Of a DNA stretch of 64,000 bases, positions 26,230-64,000 are shown piece after piece. The DNA is taken from positions 5,461,023 through 5,525,022 of the forward strand of contig FN649729.1 of NCBI GenBank assembly GCA_000310025.1, written 5' to 3'. Source of the DNA: Ectocarpus siliculosus. Its lineage: Eukaryota; Sar; Phaeophyceae; Ectocarpales; Ectocarpaceae. Position 1 is the first letter of the stretch. Every line of letters starts with the position of its first letter. Under the pieces are notes generated by a model. That model was not told the origin of the DNA and searched no databases. It saw nothing but the letters and a program-made list of their open reading frames with translations. Position numbers and translations under genes: made by a program.

Positions 26230-26535
26230 ATGAGCGACACCGAGCAAGATCGAGTGAGCGCCCGACTAGCAGAGGAGGAAGCCCGGATCAACTACTTGGT
26301 CGAACAGAGGGTAGAAGCAAGACTGGCCGAGATGTCGAGGCAAGAAGCAGAGGAGCGGAGGACAGATGACGTCCGGACCGGAAGAGAGCACGAGGATCGC
26401 CACCAGCAACACGCGGGGCGGCCATCGGCCAACCCGACGACCGACGAAATCGCCCGCACACTCGCCGACGCCCTCACCGGTCGACTTCACGTCTCATCAG
26501 GGGACATGGGTAGAGTACAGGGACGGTTCGAATGA
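26230..26535 (+). CDS. Retrotransposon 5' ORF, coiled-coil (Gag N-terminal segment)
   Basis: 101 codons, rich in Glu, Arg and Ala with heptad-like spacing (EEEARINYLVEQRVEARLAE). The stop TGA overlaps the ATG of the next frame as ATGA at 26,532-26,535. It may be a separate small protein translated ahead of gag, or the true Gag N-terminus separated by one frame change. Related elements would decide. Confidence 0.6.
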   Translation: MSDTEQDRVSARLAEEEARINYLVEQRVEARLAEMSRQEAEERRTDDVRTGREHEDRHQQHAGRPSANPTTDEIARTLADALTGRLHVSSGDMGRVQGRFE

Positions 26536-28886: not shown

Positions 28887-28930
28887 ACCATCCGACTAGT
28901 CAGCGCTGACTTGCCTGATGGTCTAGTTCC
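28879..28930. repeat. Cruciform-type hairpin at the gag-protease stop
   Basis: GGAACTAGACCATC at 28,879 is perfectly complementary to GATGGTCTAGTTCC ending at 28,930. Between them is the perfect 14-bp palindrome AGTCAGCGCTGACT (28,898-28,911). The gag stop codon lies in the left stem, and the integrase core is missing immediately downstream. Confidence 0.8.
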
Positions 28931-28961
28931 GCGATTAAAAGATATGCGCTGAGCTCGTTAG

Positions 28962-29612
28962 CACCCGGCCGGATCACATGGGCTTGAGGCCTTCTTCGGA
29001 CGTAAACCGCCGCTCAACGTCGTCCCTTTTTTCCAGGAGGGGATGATGCGCGTGAAGCGCGCCAGCAAGGCGGACGTCCAATCCGTGCGTTGCTTCTACA
29101 TGCACGGAGCGCGCAACCACTCCGCCGCCACTGCCGTCGTTCTCCGCGCCGACACCGGAAGGATCTGCCTGTCCAACAACGTCGTGTGGATCAACCGCCG
29201 CACCGCCGTGCCGGCGCCGGTACCGGCCAGCGGGGGGGGCTCTTCGGTCACCGCGGCGCCCTCGCCCGGCCGCCGCCGTTCCTGCAGCCGCTGCCGCACC
29301 GCCACCGCCATGGGCATCGCGGACGTACACCTACACCCCGCCCACAGCGACCACCGCTTCGCCGCCGCCCGCTTCTCCGTCGATCTTCACAGGGACCGGA
29401 GCCGCGTCGCCGATCTCCTCGGCGTCTTCGAGTGCACCGCCGTCCACCGCAGCCACGCCGCCCCGTCCACCGCCGACAACACCGCCCGCAAGCGCCGGCG
29501 CTCCCGCTCCCCATCACCCGCCGCTTTCACAGCGAGTCGTCAGAGAATTGGGCGAGAAGGAAACCAGAGTGCATGGCCGTACACGCGGCGACCGAGTACG
29601 CTTCATGGATGA
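28962..29612 (+). pseudogene. Integrase C-terminal remnant
   Basis: Open in the gag frame after a TAG at 28,959. It reads SHGLEAFFGRKPPLNVVPF, then RVKRASKADVQS..CFY and NNVVWINRR, which match the end of copia integrases (the GKP..L segment and the strand-rich C-terminal domain with a V-x-W ending). The HHCC zinc domain and the DDE catalytic core, about 300 residues, are absent. The rest to 29,612 is Ala/Arg/Ser-rich linker. The following RT frame is offset by one base. Confidence 0.75.
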
Positions 29613-31506
29613 GCAACAGCAACCGCCGTCGCCGTCAGGTGGCGGCACCGCTCTCCAACACCGCCTTGGGCTGCTGTCGATGATGGGCAAGGACGCTCTC
29701 GTCTCGTCGCTCGCCACCCGGGAGGCCGTCGATCAAGGACGTCGAGACCTGCCACCGTCCGCCAGCATCGCCCCTCCCGCTCCCCCACCGCCGCAAGATA
29801 CGAGTTTAGCAGGCCATGGGAGCGGGGGGGCCGCAGGAGCTGGAGGGCCGGGGGGCCTGCACATGTTCGCAGCAATGTTCGCCACCCGCGAGGACGTGGA
29901 AGCCACTCTTCGTGCCAAGCGCCCTCCTGACAAGATGCCGGACCTCCCTCACTGCCTCGCCAGCGACCTCCGAGTGCCGAAAACGTTCAAGGAGGCCATG
30001 CGGTCTCAACATTCAGAGTTGTGGGATGATGCAGTCGGTCGGGAGTTTTTCGGTCTGTTGGATGCGGGTACTTTTAGTCCGGTGTAGCAACCAGTAGAAA
30101 ATTTCATCAACGCCAAGTGGGTATTCAACTGTAAGGCAGACGAGTACGGATGGCCGACGAAATTCAAGGCAAGACTTGTAGCGCGGGGGGACATGCAGAG
30201 GGCTTCGATTGATTTTGGAGAATTTTTTGCACCCACCGTATCCGTGTCTAGTGTGCGTTTGTTGGCAGCTTTGGCATGTGAGCAGAACCTTGACTTGTGT
30301 CATTTCGATATTCAGCAGGCGTTTGTGCAGTCTGAGCTTGAAGAGGATGTTTTCATGCGTCTCCCGCAAGGTTGTGGTAGGTTATCTGGACTGATCGTGA
30401 AGCTATGCAAGAGTCTGTACGGTTTGAAGCAGGCGTCACGACAATGGCATGCGCACCTGACGAGGTGTTTGTTACTTTTAGGATTTGTGCAATGTTTGGC
30501 GGATGCATGTGTTTTTCGATTTATGGAGGATGGATGTGTGATCATGATCATCGTGGTCCACGTGGATGACATTTTTGCCGTAGGGCAGAAGGAGAGATGT
30601 GACAAGTTTGGCAGAGACCTCAACGAGATGGTCCCCGTGAAAAACCTTGGGGAGTTGAGGTGGTACTCCGCGTGCTTTTACCAGAGAGATCTAGAGAGAG
30701 GCCTTTTGAGGGTCTCGCAGCAAAGGTTTGCAGAAGAGTTGGCTGCAGAGTACGGCGTAGAGTGGGGGAAGAGTGTGCCCTTGCCTGTGAGCATGAAGCT
30801 CACCGACTTTGACGAGGACGAAGCGTGTGCTGACGTCCCTTTCCGCGAGTTGGTAGGATCCCTGATGTGGTTGGCCACTCAAACCAGGCCGGACATCGCG
30901 AATGCAGTACGAGCAGTAGCGCGGTATTGCGCGTCTCCCAAGATGGTGCACTGGAAGGCAGCACTTGGTATTTTAGGGTACGTGCGTAGGACGAGTTGGA
31001 TGGGGATTACATTTGAGAGGGGTGTCGTGACTGGCATGAGCATGCAGGTGTTTGTGGATGCTGACTATGCGAGCAAGGCAGCAGACCGTAGGTCGGTTTC
31101 AGGAGGACTAGTGATGTGTGGGGGTGGGTGTGTGACTTGGTTTTCGAGGACGCAGAAGTGCGTTACGCTTTCCACAACGGAAGCAGAGTATGTGGCAATT
31201 GCCGACGTCTTGAAGGAGGTGCTTTTCTTGAGGCAAGTTTGGCGTTTTATGTTGCCAGATGCAGGTATGCCGTGCATTCAAATCTTCGAGGATAATCAGG
31301 GAGCGATTCAGATTGCGCACAACCCGATCACGAACTCAAACTCGAAGCACATTGATGTACGACATCACTTTATTAGGGAACTGGTAGAGAGGAAGGAGAT
31401 TTCGATTACCCATGTGGCGTCGGAGTTTCAGCATGCAGATTTCTTGAAGGCTATCAGCAAGGAATCTTTTGCGTTGCACAGAGACTTTGTGATGAATTTG
31501 CAGTGA
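29548..31506 (+). pseudogene. pol: Reverse transcriptase/RNase H of the copia element, one in-frame stop
   Basis: A single frame interrupted only by TAG at 30,085-30,087; the part after 30,193 is 437 codons. RT landmarks: KWVFNCKADEYG and KARLVARGD, FDIQQAFVQSELEEDVFMR, LCKSLYGLKQASRQWH, and VVHVDDIFAVG, where HVDD replaces the usual YVDD but keeps both catalytic aspartates. RNase H landmarks: VDADYASKAADRRSVSGG, STTEAEYVAI, EDNQGAI and SKHIDVRHHFIRELV. The C-terminus HADFLKAISKESFA lacks the Thr normally seen before Lys. The domain set is complete; only the stop and the upstream frame change argue against an active protein. Confidence 0.9.
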
Positions 31507-42846: not shown

Positions 42847-43135
42847 GTAAGGCGTTTCAGCAGCGTCCTGAATTCCGCCTGTCACCGCTAATTTCACGTG
42901 GAATTTTTGCTGAGCAGGGACGCGCCTTGACACCGGTCCTTCCCTGTAGCCCATCCATGATAGTGAACATACGTTGAAGAACATCTCGGCGGAATATTGA
43001 TGATCCTGGCCTATATTCAATTCAGATATCTCAGCCTTCGACGTGATGGATTGGCGTGAAGCCTATACCGTGTGCCAGCCGGGGTGTCCGGTCTACCGAC
43101 TAACGCGTGGTGTACCACCTCTCTTCGAACCTTAG

Positions 43136-44288
43136 AAATCCAGGCTGGTATGTCGACGTGGGAGATGAGCAGCTCTGCAGGAAAGCAGCAAGCATCGGTC
43201 ACCTCGAGGTCCTTCAGTGGGCAAGAAACAACGGGTGCCCCTGGGACGAGACCACGTGCTGGTGGGCGGCTGCCAACGGACACCTTGAGGTCCTCAAGTG
43301 GGCGAGAAACAACGGATGCCCCTGGGACGAGAACACGTGCTTTACGGCGGCTGCCTACGGACATCTCGAGGTCCTTCAGAGGGCGAGAAGCAACGGATGC
43401 CCCTGGGACGAGAACACGTGCCATAAGGCGGCTGCCTACGGACATCTCGAGGTCCTTGAGTGGGCAAGAAACAACGGATGCCCCTGGGACGAGACCACGT
43501 GCTCTGAGGCGGCTTACAACGGACGTCTCGAGGTCCTCCAGTGGGCGAGAAGCAACGGATGCCCCTGGGACGAGAGCACGTGCTGGTGGGCGGCTGCCGA
43601 CGGACATCTCGAGGTCCTCCAGTGGGCGAGAAGCAACGGATGCCCCTGGGACGAGGACACGTGCTGGTGGGCGGCTGGCCACGGACATCTCGAGGTCCTT
43701 CAGTGGGCGAGAAACAACGGATGCCCCTGGGACGAGACCACGTGCTCTGAGGCGGCTGCCAACGGACATCTCGAGGTCCTTCAGTGGGCGAGAAGCAACG
43801 GATGCCCCTGGAACGAGACCACGTGCTCTAAGGCATCTTACAACGGACATCTCGAGGTCCTCCAGTGGACGAGAAACAACGGGTGCCCCTAGGACGAGAC
43901 CACGTGCTCTAAGGCGGCTGCCAACGGACATCTCGAGGTCCTTCAATGGGCAAGAAACAATGGATGCCCCTGGAACGAGACCACGTGCTGGTGGGCGGCT
44001 TACAACGGACACCTTGAGGTCCTCCAATGGGCAAGGAACAACGGATGCTCCTGGAACGAGGCGACATGCTCTGAATCGGCTAAGAACGGACACCTTGAGG
44101 TCCTTCAGTGGGCTAGAAACAACGGATGCCCCTGGGACGAGACCACGTGCTCTAAGGCGGCTGCCAACGGACATCTTGAGGTCCCTAAGTGGACGAGAAG
44201 CAACGGATGCCCCTGGGACAGGGACGATTGCCTAGACCGGGCTGAAGGATCACACGATCACGTATGTGCATGGATAAGAAACAACTAA
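43136..44288 (+). pseudogene. Ankyrin-type repeat gene with one premature stop
   Basis: Begins after acceptor CGAACCTTAG and runs in one frame to TAA at 44,286-44,288, broken only by TAG at 43,890-43,892 where every other unit has TGG (C-P-W to C-P-stop). There are 13 repeats of 27 residues with the pattern GHLEVLQWARNNGCPWDE-TC-WWAA plus a degenerate last one (SHDHVCAWIRNN). The helix-turn-helix core GHLEVLQWA is ankyrin-like; the NNGCPW part is characteristic of large repeat families in stramenopiles, whose functions are mostly unknown and assumed to be protein binding. An upstream exon is probably missing, as no good start precedes the acceptor. Units are so alike in DNA that the other frames stay open too. 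Confidence 0.7.
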
Positions 44289-46882: not shown

Positions 46883-49800
46883 CTAGAGCGACGACAGGAC
46901 GGCAAGCACCGTCACGAACCCAGTCGCCGCCGCCGCCGCCCACCTGCCCCCGCCTCCCACGCGGAGAGCGCCGTCCGTCTCCTCCTCCACCAGGCCTTCC
47001 CCCGCCGCCGACGGGCTTTCGGTAATCAGCAGCGAATCGGAGGCATCGGTAGGAGCGCGAGTCTCTCCGGGAACATCGACGCCCCTGTCACCATCGGCGG
47101 CGCTGGGCGCCATGGTTTCCGAGCCCGTCATCCCTGCAGCCCCCGTGGGCGAGGATGTGGACCCCTCGACGCCGGTGGGTGCCGCAGAGGGAGCGGAGGA
47201 GGAGCCCGTTTCTGACTCCAAAGTCGTCGGCGCCACGGAGAGGGTCGAAGACGGAGGCGTTCCTGACACCGCCATCGTTGGCCCCGCCGTCGGCGTGTCG
47301 GCGGCGATCGGTGCCGCAGAGGAGGCCTCCGAAGCGGCGGGAGTTCCGCCGCCGGTCGCGGCAGGCGTTCCAGCGATCGTGGGCGCCGCCGTCGGCGTGT
47401 CGGCGGCGATCGGTGCCGCAGAGGAGGCCTCCGAAGCGGTGGGAGTTCCGCCGACGGTCGGGGCAGGTGTTCCAGCGACCGTCGCACCGTCGCCGTCGCC
47501 GCCGTCCCCGCAGAAGAGATCCAAGACCAAGGACCCCCGGTTGGGGGCCAGTCCGTGGAACCCGAGCTCGTTGTCCCCGCCGAAGGCGTAGAGGAATATG
47601 GTCTCGTCCCCGGGAGTTCCCGAGATGGCCTGCTTGTTCGCGGGGGCTAGGGGCCGGGTGAAGGAGAGGGTCGTGCCAGACGCGTCTTGGCTAACCGAGC
47701 CGCCGGTGATATCTTGCGTTGCGGAGGGCAGCACTCCCGCGGTCGTCTTGCGTTTCGCGGCGAAAAGGGTTGAGTTGTTGGGCCGGCAAAGTTTGCCACG
47801 ATTCGTGCCGGGGAAAAGATGTATGCGAGTCGAATGGGGACGGGGAGAGGGGGAAAAGGAAGGCACGGTAAGAGGGGGGTTACACTACAACTGGGGAACG
47901 GATTCCATCCAAAGGGAGAAATCGTCAGCCCACAAGAAGGTCACGGTGAGTATTCGTGATGCATACCAGCGACAACGTTGAAGAAAGAAATGCAATCGGT
48001 GCGCTCAACTCTGATTCTTCGGGCATGCGCACAAAAAATACTACAGAACGTGAAAGAAAGACAAACGTGGAATACGAGATTGAAGCTTTTCATCATGAAC
48101 GGGCCGGTCATCCAATCATCCTCTCACCACCACATTCTAAAGCCAGAAAAACTTCAAGAACCTCAGCAGCAGTGCTGCACGTGCGAGAACAACGCGACCG
48201 ATGAAGCAAACGTCGAGGGCGCGGCAATCTCCAGCACCGTACTGCAACATAAACTAACGTCGCTCGGCAGTGCCAAATCGACGTGTTTGATCCCGGTTAT
48301 TACCTGGGAGATCAGGTCGTACTCCTCGACGGCAGACTCGTCAGGCAGGCCGATGACGGCGTCCGATCCGATCATCATTAAGTCAGAAGAGAAGCCCAGA
48401 CTCGTCCACGCGACTGCCGTGCTCACGACCTGGAATGGGTTGGCCGACGGGAGAGCGAAGAAAGCAATCAATGCCTGTGGGACTCTCTGGACAGAGGGGA
48501 AAAACCCGTCACGAATGGCTAGGCTAGGTTCTTCCACCAACGGGGGCACCTCGTTTACCATGTCCATAGCATGACGTCGTCCATTGGTTTCTTCGAGAAC
48601 GAACTCGTACGAAACTTTTACGCCACTATTTTGGAGGCAGCAGGTGAACATGGAAATGTCTTCGTTGATTTGGAAATAGATATGAAGAGCAGATACGGGA
48701 CGAAGGCCAGCGAGGAGCGGGGGGGGTGGGTACTTATGGTCGTGCATGCCGTCGTCGTTCGAACATTGACCTCGAATCCCCTACAAAGACCAGGCTCTCA
48801 CATCACCAAGCGCGAAGCGCCGTGAGGTATTCGGCGAGTCGTATGAAGGGTGCGCTGCAACCTGCTAAGGGTGTTCGGCATCTTGTGCTTACTTCCTTGC
48901 GTGCGAATGACAGCTGCGTAGGACTTTATTATTTTCTGGTGCTTCCACTTCCAGAGACAGTTATTGGCACTGTGTAACTGCCTCAAGCGTGCTTGACAAA
49001 GCTTGACCATCTTTAACACAACGTGGTGCGATCATCTCCCTTGCGCGGAGTGACGGTCCTCGACCCCGCACAACATAATCTACTCGGCCACCATTGCGGT
49101 TACCGCAAAGAGAAAACCAGAGATGAAAAAAAAAATGCAACCTGGTTGCCGAGCCCACGAAGTGATTGGCTTGTTTTACAACAACGTCGTTGCCATACGA
49201 CGAAAACCCAACCCGGATGGCAAACACCGAGGGGGGCTTGTTTTACAACGTCGTTGCCAAGCGACGAAAATCCAACCCCGATGGCAATCACCGGGGGGGG
49301 ACAGGGGAGGGGGAGGGGGGAGGGGGGGGGGTGTGGGGTGTTGGGTTGTGGGGGGGGTGGGGGTGTTTGTTTGGTGNNNNNNNNNNNNNNNNNNNNNNNN
49401 NNNNNNNNNNNNNNNNNNNNNNNNNNNNNNNNNNNNNNNNNNNNNNNNNNNNNNNNNNNNNNNNNNNNNNNNNNNNACCTACTTCATTTCCGGTCCCCCG
49501 GGTAGGGGGGAGGGGGGGGGCAGAAGAGATCAACAACGACGAGTGTTTTCTGTTCAAGGGCGCGGTGGAGTTGAAAAGGGGCAACACGGGCTAAAGGTCC
49601 TCGAATTTCGCCGAGCCCCATTTTTGATGAAATTTTTTTCTGCGGGTGAAGGGATGGACCCGTTCCACACTATTTTCAAGTGATACATGAGGAGATGTCA
49701 CTTCTCCAATTGAGTCTACCGCAGTCACAAGGGAACAAAGAGGGCCAGAGCGAGAGAAGAACAGAAGTGTAGCACAGCAATAGGGTGGTGTCAAAAAGGC

Positions 49801-51127
49801 CGGTCGATTAGCGCCGGTGGCCCTGGATAGAGCCCGTGAAATTGCTGGGCACCGAGTCATTCTGTACGTTGAATAGAGCCGGTCGATGCGCCGGGCACAA
49901 CCGGGGTTGTTTAATGAGGGCCCCCTACTGCTGTATTGAGCGAAGGGAATCTGGGGGTTGCGGGGAGCGGGAATGGGATCGTACAGCATCACGTATGTAC
50001 GGAGAGAATTGCTACAGGTACTTCATATCTTCTGGTTGTAGACCTCGCGCAGATGTATGCTTGTAAACGGGAAGATTCGGATTCAGTTGGTTGGCTAAAA
50101 GGAAGCAAGAAATACCGACGGCGGGGTGACGTCATCGCACAGCAAGAAATCCGCTGTGGACCCTACACGAGTGTATGTGTATTTATGGTATAGGGCGTTC
50201 GAAAGTCCGCTGTAGACCCCCCTAGTGTAGGTATGGTTTAGGGCGTTAGAAAGGTCTGAGTGAGCTTCGGGCGTCGAGTGGGCTGACTACGCGTAAGAAC
50301 CCTCTTGGGGCGTGGGCGAATCTCAACTCTCACCTCAACAGATATCGTCTCAGCAACGGTATCCACCGACCAGTGCACGTCGAATCCATCCGTTGGCGTG
50401 ACCTGTCGTTAAATACAAGCGGCAACAGAAATGGCGACCAGCCGCAGAGATGGTTCAACGGGGACAACAGGCATCCGAGCCAGCTGCTGCTGTGTGCCAC
50501 CAGTCTGGATCGCCATCAGCGAAAACATGCAAGATGCGGAGTATTCCACCACGAACAGTTTTCTCCGCCCGCTTCCTCCCGCTTCCTCCCGCTTCCTGCC
50601 CGCTCTCTTAGCACCTGCTTGCTGTCTTCTCTGTCTACCTATGTGGCAAAGCACAGGCTAGGTACCAAAAGAGGGAGTGGGCCTGCTGTCTATGTCGCCG
50701 AGGCTTTGTCGGAAAATCTCTGCAGCCGGGGCTCTACACTTGTCCCTCCACATGTTATTTGTAGAGCGCCGAGGGACGACACGATCAATGTATGTATGTA
50801 ATTAATCTTAATTGTATGCATAGGCCAAAAAGGCCGACTCGGTAGCACGGGGAATAATGAATAACTTGCCGTCCAAGACGACTGCTCATCAGAGATCCAC
50901 AGTGAACTCCGGCGGCAGGGGGGCTACAACAGCACCTACTACGCACACACGCGCCGTCGTGTGAGGGTCGGGCCGGCCGCAAGGTGAAAGCCCTGAAGTC
51001 TTCGCACCTGGTAGTCGAAGGCACCATTGGTCGATGGCTCACAAGACGTCAAATCCTGACCGCACCCGAGCTGCGCCGCTGCCAACAGCAGCAGCGCAGA
51101 CGCCTTGATCGATGACAATGAGCTCAT
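46883..51127 (-). CDS. Secreted GPI-type DOMON protein, gene 1
   Basis: Four exons, all phase 0: 51127-51008, 50402-50334, 48429-48304 and 47746-46883, giving 392 residues. Residues 1-23 are a signal peptide (KASALLLLAAAQLGCGQ). The DOMON fold follows: FDVHWSVD near 46, VAWTSLGFSSDLMMIGSDAV at 69-88 and LYAFGGDNELGFHG near 157-170. Met82 and His169 occupy the places of the axial heme ligands in cytochrome-type DOMONs (CDH, AIR12). A Thr/Pro/Ala/Ser stalk of about 180 residues contains a 34-residue duplication, and the chain ends in a short hydrophobic tail (AAAAATGFVTVLAVLSSL) with nothing after it, typical of a GPI signal. Likely an extracellular or cell-wall electron-transfer or sugar-binding protein; the role is inferred. 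Intron 2 contains the 100-N gap. Confidence 0.85.
49170..49295 (+). repeat. Two-unit ~67-bp direct repeat in DOMON1 intron 2
   Basis: CTTGTTTTACAAC..CGTCGTTGCCA..CGACGAAAA..CCAACCC.GATGGCAA.CACCG occurs at 49,170 and 49,237. It is followed by a G-rich run leading into the gap. Confidence 0.7.
49377..49476. other. Assembly gap (100 N)
   Basis: Exactly 100 N between G-rich homopolymer sequence. True length is unknown. It lies in an intron of DOMON gene 1, so no coding base of the model is lost. Confidence 0.99.
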
Positions 51128-53635
51128 CTCGAGGATCTGTTGAGCTGGCGCGGCTGGAGAGGGTCGGGAGGAGGCGGGTGCGGGGGAGAGAGCGTCTCGT
51201 GCCAAGTGGCCAGCTGTCTGGGTGTGTGTGTGTGTGTGTGTCGGTTGTGATTCTGATTCACGTGCAGGGCCGAAAAAAATAAAAAAATAACCCCAATTGC
51301 CGTAGAGGTGGTAGGTACCGAGAGTTCGGTTCTACGATCGGAGATCATCGAAGATCTGATCATCGGAACATTTGTTTTTATTATTCCTTAATTTGTTTTT
51401 TCTAAATGACACATTTGTTTTTTTTTATCTTAGGTAACAGGCTCAGCGAGACAGTTTGGTAGCTGCCTTGTGTGTCTCATATATGTTTTTTTGGTCTGCA
51501 GGGCAAAAAAGAGGGTCGACGGGTCGACTTCAGCCAGTAGTACACGTCATCGTCGTCGTCATCATCATGACGGATGGTGATGTTGCCCTTGAACGTGTTG
51601 TTGCACTCTCGTCCGAGAAATGATGAAAGGGGGTGACCCTGTGTGGCCCTACGCCCTGCTATGCCCAATCCGAAATCAAGCTCATGGTATGTACGTACGC
51701 CTCGGTCATTTCGAACTACTGCTGTACTGCGGCGAGTGACACGAGATACCACCCCCCGGCCCGATTTCAACCTCGACCAATGTATACTCCCCGACTACGT
51801 ATGAATAGAATGTATGAATACTTGTAGGATCCAAAATCAAATGAGACGCTTTCGGAAAGATCCCGACGAGACGGCTCCGAGATAGCCTCTTTTGGCACCG
51901 CCGCTCCCCTCACTTTGAAAATCGGTCCAGGGGGTTTGGTATCTTCTTGCGTCACTTAGTCTACAGTTGCTCGCTGTTACAATAGCGAAGTGGTGTATAC
52001 TGTAGAACATGCAAAAACAAGTGCAGGCCCGCTCGCAGGGTATACGAGGCAGAACATAGGAAGTCATGTACCGTTGTAGCACTGCTGCTTTCACTTCAAT
52101 TGCTGATGCATCAGGATGTCCTCCTCAACTCAAGTACGAAACGTTGACGTTGACAACAACATATGCGTGCCATTTGGAAGTGGCATTTGGTGTACGGATG
52201 GTAAGAGAGGCGTTAATGCGGGGGGTCACTACATACTGTCTCTAACTAAGCGAATAAACTTCAATCTCAACATTTGTTTTCAATTCTGATCTATTCTACA
52301 TTGTTCCCCGCTGCTTGCGATATCAAGGCAACCACTCCCTTCAGTCTGTCGGGACACATTCAACAAACAACCAAATATTGTTGTTGGCATTCGTTCGACA
52401 CTCACGCACAACTCAATCAAAGGATTTTTTCTTCTTAACGGTGTGCGTATTTTTCGCGCTTGTCTCCGATCCGCGGCACCCGCCGTCCCCGGGTTCAGCT
52501 GATCAAAAAAACCAAAATGTGATCGGCACTAAACTGGGTACAAGCTACAAGCTATTTGTGCGGGCCATGGTTTCCCTGGCATCTGCAATCTGCAACCGCC
52601 TCGCGATGTGTACGAACACGAAAGAAAGAAACCTACAGCGATAATCAAATCTTATCATCCCTCAATTCACGAGCAAGCAGGCCCCGACGAGACCACCGCG
52701 AAATTCTAGCCACAGGACCAAAAATACGGACCTCTACAAATCCATCCAAAGAGCCGGACGCCAACTGCTTCTTCTGTGTTCTCAGTATACATGGAAAGCA
52801 CCAGATTTAGTCCAGCACAAGACAAGATCGATCATGGTACCCTACCGAACACGGGGGGTGCGGTCAAGGAGTCAAGTGACGAAGGCACGCGACAATCTCA
52901 AGCGGAACTACCCGGCCTGATTCTAGACCTACGAGTGATGGGACAAGAAAAAATCACCAATGGTCATCTCAAAGATCCGGGGTCGCAGACGAAAACATCG
53001 AGACTCCAGAAAAAACTACGAGACGATGAGACACCAGTACAACGGGGAGGAACGATCTACCAATAACAAGAAAAAAATAAAGGAAAAAAAGACAAAAAGA
53101 GAGGGTTGCGGTTCACGCGTGCAGCGTCACAGCGCACCAACACAGCCGAGGTTCCGGTGACGCATGGGCGCGCCCGGTCGCTTGACGCAGTCATCGAACC
53201 CCCGAACAAAGACGAGCGGCACAAAACACGAAACAAATATAAAGATCAAAAGACGGAACGAATCGTGAAGAGCAGCAGCAGTCTTGATTGATGTCACCCC
53301 ACGGGCGCGCTGTGGTAAAAGGGCTAAAGGCGACCAGAGCTAGCTGCCCGCGTGACACATCCACCACATATCCCTTTCCCCCCACACCGACCACCAACAC
53401 CGACAACCCAACCCGACCCAACACTGGCTGCACAACGAGCCAAGCAACGCCGCAGGCGTTCCACGAGACTCTCATCTATTATCTACTTCGTCCGGTTGGT
53501 AAAGCACGCGCGCAGGCGGCAACGATCTTCTTCGAGGGCAGCAAGACCCCGCAGAACTCCTAGGGTCCTCACCACGCCGCCCCTCAAGAGCAACTAAAGG
53601 CACGCATGTTCTTAAGCCTGCGCGACGCCGGTTGG
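51128..53635. other. Intergenic region between DOMON genes 1 and 2
   Basis: 2.5 kb that should contain the promoter of gene 1 and the 3' end of gene 2. It holds a (GT)n run at 51,220-51,241 just upstream of the gene 1 start, and a MITE at 51,725. No further gene is recognised; frames at 52.3-53.1 kb lack domains. Confidence 0.5.
51725..51964 (-). mobile_element. MITE copy B
   Basis: Left end TACTGCGGCGAGTGACACGA..CCGATTTCAA and right end, read inverted, ACTAAGTGACGCAAGAAGAT..CCGATTTTCAAAG form imperfect terminal repeats. The interior matches the copy at 56,830 in reverse (CCGTCTCGTCGGGATC, minus strand). It lies upstream of DOMON gene 1. Confidence 0.65.
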
Positions 53636-56600
53636 TTACAGCGACAAGGCGGCCAGCACCGTCGCTACGCCAGTCGCTGCCGCCGCCATCGCCGCCCACC
53701 CGGCCCCAGCGGCGGCGTGGAACGCGCCGTCCGAGTCCCCCTGGCCGCCAGCCTCGGTTGTTGGGCCCTCCGTTGCCGGCACTCCGTCGGCCTCTGCGCT
53801 GGGCGAGGGGGTCTCCCCGTCCGTGGTCGTTATCCCCCGGTCGCCGTCAGCCGGGGTAGGCGCGGGCGTCTCCCCGTCCGCCGCCCCGTTCTCCGCGACG
53901 GCCGCCGCGGTAGGCGCCAGGGTAGGCGCAGGGGTTTCCCCCGTGCCTCCACCGACGACGGTCGGGGCCGGTGTTCGGGCGAGGGCGGCGATGCCGCCGG
54001 TGCCACAGTAGAGGTCCACCCTCATGCCCGACCACGTCACGTCGCTGATGACGCCGAGCTCGTTGTCCGCGCCCTGGCCGAAGATTAGCTTGGTCGCGTC
54101 GCCCGCTACGTACGAGATGTTCTGCTTGTTGCCCCCCGGGGACAGGGGTCGGATGAAGGAGAGGGTAGTGCTGCCGTCGGCCTGAACGATCGAGGCTTCC
54201 GTGATGTCTTGCTGCTCGAACACCACCACCTCTTCCGCCGTCTGATGGTTTTTTTCGTGGTGACGACAGTTGCCAGCCATCCCGTGCGAAGAAACGAAAT
54301 GACAGGGGGTCCGGCGAATAGGAGGCGGGGGGGGGGGGCAGACGGGAGAAGGTTACGCGAAGTGGGAGGGGTACAGTATTTCCACGGTAACCTCAGGAGC
54401 CGTTCTTCTCAGGAGCCGTTTTTCTGGGACAAATGTAGCCTGACAGTCGACGGTGCGATGCCGAAACAGCTATTGGTCCCTCAAATCTTTCCAACACACA
54501 GAAGAATTTCCAGCCAAGAACACGGGTTGTGGCACTAAAGAATCGTGTGATAATGTGGGTCGTAGTCCAAACAATCACGTTGCCGCATGGATGCGCGAGG
54601 ATGTGGCTCGGAAGAAACATAAAAATACTGCACACACTGGACAAGACGATCAAAATGTAGAGCAACATACGCACATGTGGGCTCCCTACGCAAAGAGAGC
54701 AAAGCTATGTTACTATGTACGAATAAGACCAGGCACGCCGCACGCAGATCCTAACTTAGCTTAGTCGATGGTAGTAGTTCATCCAGTATGTTTGCTTGCG
54801 TTAGAAGAGCCGTAGAGTAGACTTCGGTACTGGTTTCCGGGAGGGGTTGTTCGATTTGTTTATTACCTCTCCCAAGACCTCGTACTCCAACACGGAAGAG
54901 TTGTCCGGGAGCCCGATGATGACGTCGGATCCAACCAGGTCCAGATCTACGGAAGGGAACCCGATGCCAGCCCAAGCCACCGACGATGTGACCATCTGGA
55001 GAAACGCAGAGTGAACAGCACATGAGCGCGGGTGGTGGGGGGGCAGTTTCAGCTGGATGCATTGGGCTGCAGAAAGTTCTCTTTGGACGCTAAATGACCT
55101 CCTGGATATAAAGGTTCGAAGGTAAAAAAGGGGCGTCCACCGCTCTCGCAGGCGTAGTCCTCTCCAACGTGAATTGGTGCAATAGGAAAGAGAACCGAAA
55201 CGAGGGGGGGCGGAGAGACATAGCCACTACTTAGCTATTTCGACACACAAGGACTTTGTGCACAACAGAGCCTGTCGTAGTCTTGGGTTTTGTTTTTCGT
55301 AATGGCACATCATATTTTGCACATGTTGCTTGAGGGCTGACGAGAAACTTCAGAGAAAACAGTATACTTTATGCGTGTGTATTTGTGTTTACTTATAATT
55401 TACAGAGTAACTGATTTTGTCAGAAAGTCGTGTGTGACGGAAATGGGAGAATATTTTCTACGGCCATGGGAACCATTGGTATGGAAGCGGGAGGACTTGC
55501 TGCTGTGCTTGTGTGACTGGTGACGGTTTCGGTAACAGCAGTAACGGCGGTACTACGGACGTACCATGATGAATTGATTGCAATGAACCAGCTAACAGCG
55601 GTTTTACGAGAGCCTTGGAACTTTCGGCAGTCGAGGGTCAAATATATGCTTCGAAGTATGCTGAAAGGGGTGGGGAAGCTGGAAGCTGGGGAATCGGATA
55701 GAAAAAAACGACCTGGTTGGGTAAAGAGGGACGCACAGCACCAGTGCCGCACGAAAAAAAAGCCCGACCAGATGGCGACCCTCGTAAGTAGAACAATTTG
55801 AAGAATTTTGTAGAACACAGTAGCAGCAGTCATACAATAGTAGCATGATAACACCACGGATCACCATCGTCGTAGAAATTCTCGCCTTTCCATATTATAG
55901 CAACACTCATTCACTTAGTTGTTTTATTTTCACGTCAGTTCTTCACAGATACCAGGTCCCACAGACTATGTTTGCGTCTAGGCTGGAATGTCAGTTTCTT
56001 TTTTTGCGCCAAAAAAAAAAAACATGAGAGCGAGAGCGAGCGGGAGAGAGAGAAGTGCAGAGAAAGACACCAGTGTACTTCTGCACACGCAACAGGTATC
56101 TCCACCTGTAGGCAATGAGGGAAGCCGGCGACAGGGTGGTGGCCACAGACAGGGTTGTAGAAGGGTTGATGGGTGGTCGCGCTGCGGTCAGTAGGGCAGG
56201 TTAGCTGTGTAGACTTTGAAATGATCGTCTAGCTGCCTCAAAACTAGTCTATTTTCGGTAGGTTGGAAATGATCAGTCCAGAGAGGGCAAAATGATCAGT
56301 GAAGACCCATAGCTGGTATTTGTACTTCAGTGCTTCTCTGTTCTCTGGCTCCCGAAATGTGCCCTGCCAGCTCTCTAGAGCTCCTGTGTTTTTCAAACAA
56401 GCACATCCACCAGCACACACCTGTACCTCGTGGTTTCCTAGGTTCGGGCGAGGGTATGTGTGGCGCTACGAGTGTGGACGTGGTGCTGATATGTTTTACT
56501 CGTCTACAGTAGTAGTGTTGTAGCGTTCGTTGTAGCTGCTGACATAATGACTGCTGGATCTTGGGAACGATTTCCAAATTGTTGGGAACCACGATATCCT

Positions 56601-59313
56601 CGATATCTGGGCTTTGGCAGGGTTTGCAATACCCCTCCCTTTTGCCCTCGGCTCTTTGCAGCAGTGGCTTCCTACGTTCGGGCGAGTGTATGTGTGGTGC
56701 TGCGAAAGAACGCATGTGTATGTATGTATGTATGTATGTATGTATGTATGCACACACGCGTTCATGTACATAAACGTTGACAGATTCACGATTTGGCATT
56801 GATTGGCCCCATTCCCGAGACCTTGATATTACCGTATATGACACAAGATAACACACCCCCTTGGCCGATTTTTCAAAGCTCGATTTCTCAACAGCAGGAA
56901 GAGTCACAGCGCCGAAAACGGCGGCGTTGGAACCGTCTCGTCGAGAGCTGTTCGAAAACGTATTGTTTCATTTATGCATCCTCTTCGTCGTGGAGTAATC
57001 GAGCTTTGAAAATCGGTCCAGGGGGTGTGTTATCTTGTGTCATATACGGTACCCGCTGTCACTGACGTCTCTTCATTGGTCAGCCGGTTACGCGGGTGCA
57101 AATAATCTAGACACACCTACCTATGGACTTGCCACTACACGGCGCGAAGGGTTGCAGGGCGGCAACTCCACGAATTGCCACTACACCAGCATTTGCAAAT
57201 GATCAATCAATGATCAGCGAGAACGCCTGAAGACTCAAACGGGTGAATCAATTTCGCTGCGTAGACTACTGAGTCTATGGGATCAAACAGCAGTGGCATC
57301 ACCTCCCACAAAGGTCAGTGTTGCCACTTCTCGAGAATACTGCAGTAGGAAGGGAAATAATGCGTGTGCCCTCAATCCGTTCGTACGACGAGCGACACTC
57401 ATTTCCATATGAATAATAATTATTTCACGCTCATGTGGTCGGAGGTCGGAGAACAACTGGGCGAAAATACCTTCTAGGGCGGGTGGATGGTGTCTCAACT
57501 CTCAACAGAGAGCACACTCTCTTACTCTGTATCATTATTGCTGTATTTATAGAAGTATGCATGTTTCCTCGTCAGTTGGACCACGGACATACTGCTGTGT
57601 GCAAGGTACTGGGCGGAGACGGCTTCAATTTCATGTGTACTTTCTAAGAACTACACACCGGAGCAGCACTGCAACACAAGGAAAGGGATATTTTTTTGTT
57701 GCTCCCACCTCGCTGCCCCCTCCGTTGCTTGCCTTCGATGTTCGGCAAAAAACGCGGGAGTTCAGCAGCGGCAGTCCCCGTTGGCTTACTGCTGCTGTTG
57801 TGTACACTCACACACACATGTGAATCTAACACAGAATCACCACACACCACTACCCCTTCGTCCTATTGCTGCTGTGTATACTTCCACGAACAATATGGAG
57901 TGTCACCACGTACCACACCTACCTGAACAAACTACTTCGAAGTACTTACTTCCAGTCAGGTACCACCGACATCGTTGTGTGGAAGAAAAAGACCAATACC
58001 GCGGTTGTGTTGTGTGCGGTGCCATGCTGCGTAGCGGGGCATTCGAGTAAGCTTGACTACAGCAGTATAGACTTGGGATCCATACATAAATAGATGGGAA
58101 CCAACACACCAACACACACGTACATCGATCACCCGGAGACATTCAACCCATAACCTGGTGAAGAGCGTCGGAGCTGAACCAAGCCGCTCAACAAACTCCG
58201 CTGGCGGTGTGGCATTTTTTTCCCCCCGCAAAAGATACGGGGGGGCACGAAAACAATTTGTGTGCTCCTTTCGTCTCCGCGCTTTACTAGCATATATAGT
58301 CGCCACCATCGTGGAGGGTGGACTCGGCAGCGAGTGATAGGAAGAAAGTAGTTCGTGTGTGGGGCACAGAGGCGGAGCGAGGGCCCAGAGTTGGAGAAAG
58401 AGCCAACGGTAACCTCGTTACCACATGCGCTTCCCGCCGCCGTTCATGTTGTAGATCCCAGTACGTCACCTCCGCCTTAACCGCTTCTCTACAATACAGC
58501 TATGAGGATCCATGATGATATCTTACCTGGATCGCTATCATCTTGGTGTCGTTGTTCAACGTCCAGCGGATCTCATAGCCATCCTCTGGCATGACCTGCC
58601 CACGACAGCACAAGTTGGTGCAGGCGGAAGGTGTAGGAAGGGGGGCAGCCGTGTTTGTTGTGTTTTCCGTTTTCGGCGGAGAGTTCCGAGATCGAACGGC
58701 TCGGGGGACGACAAATACGCACCACATGGATAATACGGAAGATGCACAAACGTCTGTCTGTACATGACATGTACGTGGCTTGGGGGAAACAAGAAGGGTC
58801 AGCGACAGCATGGCATGCTCACGCCTCTTATCCCTCTTAGCAGGGCGTAGCAGCAGTCGCAAGATGGCGTGGTGGCAGGCACACGTGCACACCGTACAAC
58901 ACACGAAGGAACAAAAAAAAGTCGGGGAGCTTCGAATCCCTTCCGGCCATCACAGTAGAGCTCACGCGGGAAATGCACCGCCGGTCTGTCCACAGCCTTT
59001 CACCGTCACAGCCCCTTTTCTCGCCATACATTTGTTGACTAGTTCGTGCACACACAACGTCAACCGGACCCATCCTACGCGCGTCCCGCGCGTCGATAGC
59101 TGGTACTACACACATACGTATTTTGAACCGTATCATCATGTAAAATACGTGACAACTCTCTTTCTCTCTGGGAACATGCGCACGCAGCGCACATACCTCG
59201 AAATCGTACCCATCCACGGCGGACGCGTCGCACGAGTCGGTGAACTGAGACACGCCCACGTGTGCCCCTGCCAAGAGAGCCAGTGCAGCTGCCTTCAGCG
59301 ACGAGGAAATCAT
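53636..59313 (-). CDS. Secreted GPI-type DOMON protein, gene 2 (heme ligands lost)
   Basis: Four exons, all phase 0: 59313-59197, 58595-58527, 54995-54867 and 54241-53636, giving 306 residues. Signal peptide: MISSSLKAAALALLAGAHVG. The DOMON pieces are collinear with gene 1: YEIRWTLNN, VAWAGIGFPSVDLDLVGSDV and FGQGADNELGVISD. The Met and His expected for heme binding are replaced (LDLVG instead of MMIG; ELGVISD instead of ELGFHG). A Pro/Thr/Ala stalk (TPAPT repeats) and a terminal hydrophobic stretch (AAMAAAATGVATVLAALSL) follow, consistent with a GPI anchor. Intron 2 is 3.5 kb and carries a MITE and a tetranucleotide repeat. Shared exon borders show that genes 1 and 2 arose by duplication. 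Without heme ligands it may bind a carbohydrate or a partner instead. Confidence 0.82.
56717..56750 (+). repeat. (TGTA)n microsatellite
   Basis: About eight uninterrupted TGTA units in intron 2 of DOMON gene 2, followed by CACACACG. A ~35-base motif (CGTTCGGGCGAGTGTATGTG, 56,678) occurs in similar form at 56,442. Confidence 0.9.
56830..57051 (+). mobile_element. MITE copy C, best preserved, TA-flanked
   Basis: The first 32 bases (TACCGTATATGACACAAGAT then AACACACCCCCT) are repeated exactly, inverted, at the right end. The inverted match continues with small differences to about 55 bases (CCGATTTT..CAAAGCTCGATT). Element 222 bp including the TA at each end, so insertion at a TA site is likely, as for Tc1/mariner-type MITEs. 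The interior is non-coding. It lies in intron 2 of DOMON gene 2. Confidence 0.88.
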
Positions 59314-60052
59314 CTTGACGATCTTCTGCTGCAGTGGTACAACTGCCGGAGGGACGTGATGTGATGAAAGGAATTGTGTGCGTGTGCGAGGAGACCCCGG
59401 CCGCCGCAAAGATGAGATGATGAGATGACGGACAAAAAATCTCCGGAGATTGTCGGCGGGGAAAGTTCTGGAAGCCACCCCGGGGATCAGGTCTTTGGTT
59501 CTTGGCCCGGCATGCAGACGCAACACACCCTGATCAAGGTTACGCGCCCCACCCGTCGTTGCTAGCTCGATCGTGGTGTTGTCTGTGGGCACATTGTTTG
59601 GGTTGGAGATTGGGGATAGGATCGGAGACAGCAAAATCTCCACTACGAGATTACGAGAGCTGCTGCTGCTCCTACCACAAAACATGAAGCCACACTACAA
59701 TACTGCTGTATCCCCGGGAGGCGTGTTGGTTCGCTGATGCCAGGTACGCCGGCACTGGTATCCATAATTTTCCTCTCTTTTCCTCTCAGCATCATGCCCG
59801 CTGATGGCCATTCACATCGGATTCCTCTCCCTCTCTCTCACACAACCCGTCTCTCTCCACGCCAAGAACACAGCCCCGCCACGCACGCCAATCACCCATC
59901 GACGTGCTTCGATACGCTCGAGCTCCAAGCCCGCATCTGGATCCTCTCTTGGCAATCGGATTTGAATCCCTCCTGCGGACAGCTGTGAAGTCAATCGAAC
60001 CGAGAGGACGGGATCACAGCGTGCTGCCGCCACACCACACCACAGCAGGGCA
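59314..60052. promoter_or_regulatory. Divergent promoter region of DOMON genes 2 and 3
   Basis: 739 bases separate the start codons of gene 2 (minus) and gene 3 (plus). Both 5' leaders and promoters must lie here, so shared control is possible. I recognise no specific binding site; CT-rich stretches near 59,760-59,850 are present. Confidence 0.5.
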
Positions 60053-63000
60053 ATGATGGCCATGGTGTCTACCGCGATCCGCCCGCTCGGCCTGGTCGTC
60101 TTGGCTGCTCTCGCAGTGTCTACTGCAGCACAGTCGGGATCGAATTGCGAAGTCAGCGACCTCGATGAGTACGAGTTCATGGTAAGCCGCATGACTAAAA
60201 CATGTAGTGGCTGTATCACACCAGTTCCCGCAACATGCACATGTGTACATGAACAGCCGAATTGTTAAACGGGATTGGGAAATAGCAGGGTCACCCTGAG
60301 TTGGATACGCGCAGTACAAAGCACAAGACGCGAAAGAAGGGTAGGTGTGTACAGGGAGTGGGGTGCAATCGGCCAGCTGTTTGGTGCCGCAAGCTACACC
60401 ACGTTTCAGACACAGCAGGGAGAGAAGCGGCTCGCGTGGTGGGACATGAACGTGTGCCCGCGCGGGTGGTCGGGCTCTTGCGGATAATTTTTTTTTCGTT
60501 TTTCCTGTCTGTGCCGTTCTCCAAAATCGGTCCCTGCAACGCACACACCCGCATCCGTCACTACATATTGTTGCCAACCCATGCCGTGGCGGGTACAGTG
60601 TATTCAGGCGAAACAGTCGTGTGTCCCAACAAGAGGTCTGCTAGCTTAGCAGGGCAGGCCATACCCCGGAGTGTCGTGTAAAGAAGGGTGATCTATTTAG
60701 TCCCCGGAACAGAGTTGTTGCAACCGATTGCCGTTTAAGTGGTGGTATTAATTCTTTTGTTGTGTCTGACATTAATTTCCATGTGCATGCCGGCGCGAAC
60801 GGCGGGTTGGGGTGATGAACCAGCGAGAACCGGCCTTTGCTGGAATACAACCGGAAGTGGCCACCGTTTTAAGTGTGAAGCGATGTAGCAGCCCACATCA
60901 CCGGGCGCCCATCACTTGTTTCGTTTCACAGTAGAACGTGGCGATCACGGATCGATCCTCCGGCTTCACCCGTCGGCAGGCACTTGGTGTGAACTGGCGA
61001 TACACATGTTCCCTTGAGAGCACGGAATAACAGTGAGATGTAGGGTCACGATGGTCTTCCTTTGTTGATTTGCACGTTGTGGAAATGATTCAGGGATGGA
61101 ACCCAAGCTATTATTGATGCCGATTGATTTTGAAAGAGACCGCAAGAGCACCAGAAAATGCACGCACGAGACACACAAAACCAGTCGCCGGAAGGCATCG
61201 GGACTATTAATAGAAATCGTTGATTCTCGCACTCGGCGGCAGTAGAGGCTGCTTGCTCTAAACATAAAGGTACATGTCATTAGTCTACCTCTACACGACC
61301 CCTTAGAAATCGAGACAAAATTAACACTAGTCTAAATTCAAGTCAAACGAGCCAAAACGGCAGGCGCAAATAAGGTCAGTTTAGCATTCTGACTGCACCT
61401 TAGTACTGATGCCACTAGCAGGCACCCTACAACAGCGGGGAGGGTGTGTTGGCGCGCTCAAAACTGCTTCTGTGGTGGTAACATCGAGAACCGTACAGAG
61501 TAATGGCCAACAATCTCCGCAAATAATACCGACACCCAGTGTCTTGTACTTCTGTGCTCGCCGCCCCTTACTCCAATCTCCTAAACTGCGGGTTGACACC
61601 AGTAACTGATGTCACTATTGTATTATATAGCTTCTGCTGATGACTCAGGGGCTTACGGTCCGTGGTGGTGAGCACAAGCAGAATACACTGGGGTCGTTCA
61701 AACTCTGGGAGACTAGGCCATTGCTACGATCGACCGTCGATATCTCCACCCAACAGGCAAACCTCCACGTGCCAGCACATACGACACTTTTTTCATGGTG
61801 TCCTGTGCTGATAACACTACCAAGGTGCAGTTAGAAACGGCGGGAAGGTTGCATTCGTTTCGTATATGGGAATAAAGTATGAATATAGAGCCAGCGGGAG
61901 AAGAGGTTTTGAGTTCCCCCCCCCGCTATCGATATATGTATTAGATCGTTGACCGGGGCTACTTCAGAAATTGGTGGACAACCTTGGCGGTTTTGCGGTA
62001 TATCACAAGATCCTTGCCAAAACATGGCAGCAACGGGGCACAAACAGGAACTTATGTTTTCTTGGGGGCAAGCACTCGGTGAGTTTTCCGATTTGGATGA
62101 GGAGATACATATGTGCATGCGGTGTGTCTACTGGTTTTTCGTCCTGAAAAACAAAAGAAAGATGCGGTACATACAGCAAATTGTTTTTGACGCTGTTCCT
62201 GTGCCCCAGCCCCCGTCCAATCTTGTTGCGCAACATACGCCGCCCATTTTTTTGCGATGCCCTTTTTTGCCTTGTTGCCACAACATGTATTGCTGATCAG
62301 CACTCTCCAACCCACGGATTCGTCATCTACTGGACACACGACACGGACACAGTCTCCTTCATGGTGAGCCAATAGGTAGAGAGAGCCCTGTCAAGAAGAG
62401 GATAACTTGTTGCCTTGCCTGCAGCGCAGGAGACAGCTCTTCTGTTGTTTGTTGTTGCCGTCGTCGGGACGATGCCGTTTGGTTTCTGCCCACTTCCCGC
62501 TCAGCGCCTGTCCGGTGCAACCTACGCGGACGCCGTCCGTGGTCACAGGCAAATAACATCCCACGAGGGCCAAATCAACACATAGACAGAAATCCTGCTG
62601 CACTGAAAATAGAACATGGATGTATGTGTGTGTATGCATGTGTTTATAGGAGAACCTGTTGTCATTCAACCCTCCTCCGATACCGGTCTTGCTTGCATCA
62701 CTGAAAAGGGAAAGGTTGATACCCTCCCTGAGTTCGACAAGAGCATACCACAAATCACCGATCAGAGAGCATTTTGTCCGTGCACACACCGCCGTCCTCA
62801 GAACTATGGGGACCCTACGAACAACCGCATCGCTATCTACCGCTCTCTTCTGGTGTAATTTTCTTTGTTTGAAATAACCATGACTTACGGCTGTCTGCGC
62901 GTATTGCAGTTTTACTTTCCCGATTGAGTTATTTTCGTTTTCGTTTCCATCTCATCTTCAAACGTAAAAGGCCGTGAAGGTTTAGGTGTTCCTCCCGCAA

Positions 63001-63574
63001 AGGGTGCCTCACACGCCGACGCCTTTTGTCGTTTGGACTGGCGAGCGCTCGCAGGAAGCATCGATGCCCTTGGCACATACGTTTCCTATTTTTTTTGGGC
63101 ACAAAACAAATATTTTTACCGAATCGTTACGCGAACGTGCTCGATTTCTTGGGCACAGAACAACTCCCGTACAATATTATATGAAACCTCGACAGTCTGT
63201 CGCCTCTCGTTTCTAGCTGCTCTAATTGAAGTCACCGGAAGGCTAACCGGAGTACAAAAAAGAGCAAAAAATATCACCATCAAGGCGGGACTTCTCATCG
63301 CAAAAGAAACAAGACACCCACCACACCACCAGTCCATCACCAGCAGCTCTCGCAAAGCTTTAAAAAAACAACACCCTGCTTCGCCCTTGCCGGCCACCTC
63401 CCACCCCCACCCCCACGGTACGACGGCCGTGGTCATCGGCAAACACAGGTGGAGGCCGAGGCCGAGCAATGGACGGCGGTAGGCTTCTCGCCGGACGGAG
63501 ACATGGTCGGGTCAGACGCCGTCATCTACCGCCCGGAGGACGAAGAAGTTTCGGAACAGTTTCTCGACGCACAG
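60053..63574 (+). CDS. Secreted DOMON protein, gene 3 (3' end outside window)
   Basis: Three exons, all phase 0: 60053-60181, 62301-62363 and 63449-63574, giving 106 residues so far. ATG at 60,053 (a second ATG at 60,059 is possible) opens a signal peptide (GLVVLAALAVSTAAQ). The DOMON start is FVIYWTHDTDTVSFM, then WTAVGFSPDGDMVGSDAVIY with Met83 at the heme-ligand position. Donors GTAAGC, GTGAGC and GTACTA. The exon sizes (43, 21 and 42 codons) match genes 1 and 2 (39-40, 23 and 42-43), so a last exon with the His segment, stalk and anchor should lie beyond 64,000. Introns of 2.1 and 1.1 kb contain nothing I recognise. Confidence 0.8.
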
Positions 63575-64000
63575 GTACTACTGTGCTGCGGTGCAGCGGA
63601 TCTCCGGAGATTTATGTGGTGCCGCGGACAACCAATCAATGCGGCGTGCCAGCCGCGTGTGCTTTTTTTTCGGTCGGGATTTTTCTCGGTCGTTCGCGCA
63701 TGAATCAGTGTTGCTGGTGGAGTGGGATTGTAGCTTTTGCGCGTGGAGACCACCAATCCGACGGCGGCGGCGGAAGAACGCCCCCCCCCCCCCCCCCCCC
63801 CTTTCCAGGGGAGGAAAGCTTCCCCGGTAGTTGGGACCCTTTTTGGTTACTTTCGGGGAAAAATAAAAAAAACCTTTCTGCCCGACCAAGGCAAAAAAAA
63901 AAAAAGTCCTGGCCACCCCCCCCCCCAAAGGGGGCCCGCGGGGGAGAAACCCCCCCCACCCTCCCGGGGTTTACACACAAACCCCTCCCACCCCAACCCG
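63575..64000. other. Intron start, then low-quality contig end
   Basis: From about 63,780 the sequence is a 21-C run followed by many short homopolymers (A13, C9, repeated GGG/CCC/AAA), with little natural composition. Read as poor-quality consensus near a contig end; no feature should be taken from it. Confidence 0.6.

Follow-up and report, generated by a model that had tools for sequence, protein, structure and literature searches.

A cluster of predicted secreted single-DOMON genes in Ectocarpus siliculosus, with and without a candidate heme-ligand pair

The window, i.e. the whole 64,000-base stretch of DNA analyzed here, takes up the end of a 5,525,022-base contig in the 189-Mb genome assembly of Ectocarpus siliculosus. 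Three genes that each encode a signal-peptide-like stretch and a DOMON domain lie in its last part, with genes 1 and 2 on the minus strand; gene 3, on the plus strand, diverges from gene 2. The gene models were obtained by splicing exons by hand from the sequence of this one assembly. The span given for the cluster in a preliminary description of the window, 46883-63574, is exact at both ends: the gene 1 stop codon ends at position 46883, and exon 3 of gene 3 ends at position 63574.

Genes 1 and 2 are complete, with four exons each, and encode proteins of 392 and 306 residues, respectively. Exon 1 of gene 1 (51008-51127, minus strand, as are all exons of genes 1 and 2) carries the start codon, the signal-peptide-like stretch and the first conserved Cys, while the DOMON domain begins in exon 2 (50334-50402). 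Exon 3 (48304-48429) encodes the DOMON core with a ligand-type Met, Met82, in the motif MIGSD, and exon 4 (46883-47746) encodes the end of the domain with a ligand-type His, His169, followed by the second Cys, a stalk of 173 residues, a GPI-like tail and the stop codon. Within the stalk are two tandem units of 102 bases (34 residues each; 47274-47482, minus strand) with 93% matches. A 100-base gap in the assembly (49377-49476) falls within intron 2. Gene 2 has the same layout: exon 1 (59197-59313) contains the start codon, signal-peptide-like stretch and first Cys; the DOMON domain begins in exon 2 (58527-58595); exon 3 (54867-54995) encodes the DOMON core, in which Leu replaces the ligand Met (LVGSD); and exon 4 (53636-54241) encodes the domain end, in which Ile replaces the ligand His, then the second Cys, an 86-residue stalk, a GPI-like tail and the stop codon. 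The three introns in each gene are all GT-AG and phase 0, and their positions match between the two genes.

Gene 3 is read on the plus strand. Its exon 1 (60056-60181) encodes the start codon, a signal-peptide-like stretch and the first Cys, and its exon 3 (63449-63574) encodes a DOMON core with a ligand-type Met (MVGSD). Both exons are at positions matching those of genes 1 and 2. The best candidate for exon 2 (62301-62363) was picked by motif and splice sites, and the contig stops, in homopolymer-rich sequence (about 63780-64000), before exon 4 is reached. Judged from these exons, gene 3 is the genuine start of a third copy. The three DOMON paralogues proposed previously are thus borne out as complete models for genes 1 and 2, and as exons 1-3 only for gene 3. 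The divergent start codons of genes 2 and 3 are separated by 742 bases (59314-60055), a possible shared promoter region from which the two genes may be co-expressed.

Other features of the window include an ankyrin-repeat gene (NGHLEVLQWARNNGCPWDE type; 43104-44288, plus strand; Pfam Ank_4, 3.2e-34) that adjoins gene 1 on its downstream side, Copia-type retrotransposon frames (gag, Pol_BBD and the reverse transcriptase RVT_2; 26514-31503, plus strand) and an open frame with a weak match to the FG-GAP repeat (4481-4999, plus strand; 7.3e-5).

The preliminary description had proposed a profile search of the joined proteins, and in Pfam the DOMON profile (PF03351; gathering cut-off 32.7 bits) was matched by all three: spliced gene 1 at 56.6 bits (E 3.8e-15), spliced gene 2 at 50.9 bits (E 2.2e-13), and gene 3, as joined exons 1-3, at 37.7 bits (E 2.8e-9). 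These scores, together with intron phases and positions that agree between the two complete genes, rule out a set of chance exons. In the spliced proteins of genes 1 and 2, no second Pfam family was found at E≤1, the domains absent including b561, flavin dehydrogenase, DM13 and copper monooxygenase, and an NCBIfam search gave no match. The layout described previously, a single DOMON domain with no b561 or dehydrogenase partner, therefore holds for genes 1 and 2, while the sequence of gene 3 stops before its last exon. The third-position GC content is 77% for gene 1 and 82% for gene 2, against a GC content of 53% for the entire window. A search of the bacterial and archaeal collection with exon 4 of gene 1 gave no relative, and neither did a search of the viral collection.

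Hydropathy analysis places a hydrophobic stretch at the N-terminus of the complete proteins. The stalks and anchor-type tails noted earlier in genes 1 and 2 are also present: 62% of the gene 1 stalk and 55% of the gene 2 stalk is Pro, Ala, Ser or Thr, and in both proteins a hydrophobic tail extends as far as the C-terminal residue. Their assignment as GPI-type cell-surface single-DOMON proteins is well supported as a prediction. A Cys is found near either end of the domain (C29/C184 in gene 1, C28/C184 in gene 2 and C35/C201 in a related copy on contig C8), and these two residues are probably joined by a disulfide closing the domain.

In the DOMON-type domain of cellobiose dehydrogenase (CDH), the heme iron is ligated by a Met and a His, and the animal b561-DOMON proteins keep both residues, while dopamine beta-hydroxylase (DBH) and the sugar-binding DOMON domains do not (PMC10691727). 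We mapped these positions by alignment and from published papers; PDB sequence searches with three queries (gene 1, the family profile and a b561-DOMON protein encoded in this genome) returned no DOMON structure. Met82 and His169 of gene 1 are 87 residues apart, within the range of 84 to 93 given by three published examples, namely: HYP1 (M90/H174, spacing 84; PMC10784544), CRR (M89/H180, spacing 91; PMC10784552) and fly CG8399 (spacing 93; PMC10691727). When the family is aligned, the Met position is occupied by M, L, M, M and M in gene 1, gene 2, gene 3, the C8 copy and a copy on contig C25, and the His position by H, I, H and H in the same genes with the exception of gene 3, in which this position is not seen. 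It should be noted that a Met near the ligand position is also present in the DBH/MOXD-like exons of this genome, so that the Met alone is weak evidence; it is the His, and the combination of the two, that carry the argument. The His of gene 1 and the NRG that follows it align with the b561-DOMON protein encoded at C4:2.63 Mb (BLASTP, E 0.006); an hhalign profile comparison with one b561-DOMON protein was not significant (1% probability). Since both ligand residues are present and the His aligns with a b561-DOMON protein, a redox reading of gene 1 is supported.

The situation differs for gene 2. Its only histidines are at position 18, in the signal-peptide stretch, and at position 280, in the tail, such that the mature domain has none. 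A frame error at the lost His is unlikely because the flanks are conserved (DNELG before and DLYCG after). HYP1 with its ligand Met and His changed to Leu was found to be mislocalised (PMC10784544), and gene 2 naturally carries the Met-to-Leu change made in that study. Without the ligand pair in gene 2, the three genes are not to be read as one uniform redox system, and a uniform redox cluster is rejected. The surface redox role suggested in the preliminary description thus survives for gene 1 and fails for gene 2.

Several other DOMON genes are found in the genome. The copy at C8:2.504 Mb looks complete, with four recognisable exons and a GPI-like tail. The copy at C25:1.632 Mb is 5′-truncated: the stretch read shows exons 3 and 4 only, exon 3 is followed by GC rather than GT, and the DNA similarity to gene 1 stops inside intron 2. 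The 3′ end of this copy also differs (C25:1629001-1637000, positions 2307-3709, minus strand): its stalk frame closes with no GPI-like tail, and downstream of it is a frame with a transmembrane stretch and a cytoplasmic-type tail. About 1.5 kb of the Copia-type element of the window is 73% identical to an element adjoining this copy. A fragment at C23:1.715 Mb consists of one exon 3 that adjoins an assembly gap, and an unstopped frame of 6190 residues on the same contig was rejected as an artefact of an N run. b561-DOMON genes are found at two places on C15 and one at C4:2.63 Mb, and DBH/MOXD-like DOMON genes on C29 and C48, with a putative one at C23:3.8 Mb; both classes were assigned by eye from the neighbouring exons as read on C15, C4, C29 and C48. 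The DBH/MOXD-like genes occupy three places on C29 and two on C48, a separate local expansion. Stand-alone b561 matches are on C11 and C6. As b561-type genes are present in the genome, a membrane electron source exists in trans. Among open-licence papers we found none on brown-algal DOMON proteins, which does not demonstrate their absence, and DOMON genes are likely to be annotated in published brown-algal genomes.

Among known systems, the closest layout is that of AIR12, a GPI-anchored single-DOMON b-type cytochrome that is described as specific to flowering plants in the title of a paper cited in PMC10784552; its heme can be reduced by ascorbate, according to the CRR paper (PMC10784552). 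Genes 1 and 2 share with AIR12 one DOMON domain and the lack of b561, their hydrophobic N-terminus and C-terminal tail may correspond to its signal peptide and GPI anchor, and gene 1 shares the Met/His pair. They differ from it in the 173-residue Pro/Ala/Ser/Thr stalk of gene 1 and in the loss of both ligands from gene 2. Judged by sequence, gene 1 would work like AIR12, but as the cited title restricts AIR12 to flowering plants, it is not filed under that name. The b561-DOMON proteins (CYBDOM: HYP1, CRR, SDR2 and CG8399) resemble gene 1 in their extracellular DOMON domain and Met/His ligands but contain the b561 domain that genes 1 and 2 lack, and such genes exist separately on C15 and at C4:2.63 Mb. 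Likewise, the cytochrome domain of CDH has a DOMON-type fold and the Met/His ligation modelled for gene 1, whereas genes 1 and 2 have no dehydrogenase domain and end in a GPI-like tail. The DBH/MOXD-like proteins have a DOMON domain together with the copper monooxygenase domain absent from genes 1 and 2, and are encoded separately on C29, C48 and C23. Finally, Knickkopf, a GPI-anchored protein of the insect cuticle with one DOMON domain, associates with chitin and protects it (PMC4140639). Its anchor and single DOMON domain make it a plausible model for a heme-less gene 2, but its two N-terminal DM13 domains and its long conserved C-terminal region are absent from genes 1 and 2 (PMC4140639). 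Since the defining domain of each family is missing, genes 1 and 2 fall outside the CYBDOM, CDH, DBH and Knickkopf families.

We favour, with about even confidence, a reading in which genes 1 and 2 are local paralogues that would both be GPI-anchored, gene 1 being an AIR12-like surface b-type cytochrome and gene 2 a heme-less protein that binds the wall or a partner. The cluster would be a group of neighbouring paralogues, each encoding a secreted single-DOMON protein. The proteins of genes 1 and 2 would sit on the extracellular side of the plasma membrane, attached through a GPI anchor and carried on a stalk liable to O-glycosylation. The gene 1 protein, taken individually, is probably an AIR12-like surface b-type cytochrome. 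Its domain would bind one heme via Met82 and His169, accept electrons supplied by ascorbate or by b561 or b561-DOMON membrane proteins whose genes lie elsewhere in the genome, and pass them to wall acceptors such as Fe3+, Cu2+ or oxygen. Counting against such a relay, the stalk may keep the domain distant from the membrane b561 proteins. Gene 2 appears to keep the fold, Cys pair, stalk and anchor, and with both ligands lost it has most likely lost the heme; it is probably unable to bind heme via Met/His, matrix or partner binding being more likely, and it may serve as a surface domain that binds the wall or a partner. It would be going considerably further, and seems improbable, to regard the two as a matched set, in which the gene 1 cytochrome gives electrons while the heme-less gene 2 recognizes polysaccharides or partners, the whole being an AIR12-type arrangement of independent origin outside the flowering plants.

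An alternative that we regard as rather unlikely is that every member is a matrix-binding surface protein that acts, like Knickkopf, on the algal wall polysaccharides, any heme of gene 1 being incidental or structural. The broad layout of DOMON domain and GPI anchor, the latter predicted here, is common to these proteins and the chitin-binding Knickkopf (PMC4140639), sugar binding is possible for DOMON domains, and gene 2 is without heme ligands. In addition, the stalk suits a wall protein, and wall proteins with AGP backbones, some of them chimeric, are reported in brown algae (PMC8307928). However, an exact Met/His pair is present in gene 1 and in the C8 and C25 copies, and this pair is not conserved in sugar-binding DOMON domains (PMC10691727); nor did Pfam detect a DM13 domain in genes 1 and 2.

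The remaining alternative accepts gene 1 as a functional cytochrome but treats gene 2 as a decaying duplicate and gene 3 as incomplete, with ligand loss equated to loss of function. The simultaneous loss of both ligands from gene 2 would fit such decay, as would the partial copies elsewhere, for example that on C25 with its missing exons 1 and 2 in the stretch read and its GC for GT. Nevertheless, all four exons of gene 2 are open with correct splice sites, and its signal-peptide-like start, Cys pair, stalk and tail are kept. Furthermore, genes 1 and 2 share 43% identity across 161 aligned codons (pS 0.56, pN 0.34), and their dN/dS of about 0.4 after correction indicates that, on average, change in the protein has been constrained. 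We consider this alternative improbable. For gene 1, the comparison with the C25 copy over the DOMON codons of exons 3 and 4 gives a dN/dS of 0.24 (17 synonymous and 13 nonsynonymous differences; Fisher p 0.00026), and judged against this copy the gene 1 domain is under purifying selection, in line with the favoured reading.

If the favoured reading of an AIR12-like surface cytochrome is true, finding such a protein in a brown alga would suggest that the surface electron carriers of walled multicellular organisms arose independently or are older, AIR12 having earlier been described, in the cited title, as specific to flowering plants. The pair of genes 1 and 2 also allows the same fold to be compared, as it occurs in nature, with its heme ligands present and absent, so that the role of heme in DOMON surface proteins can be tested directly.
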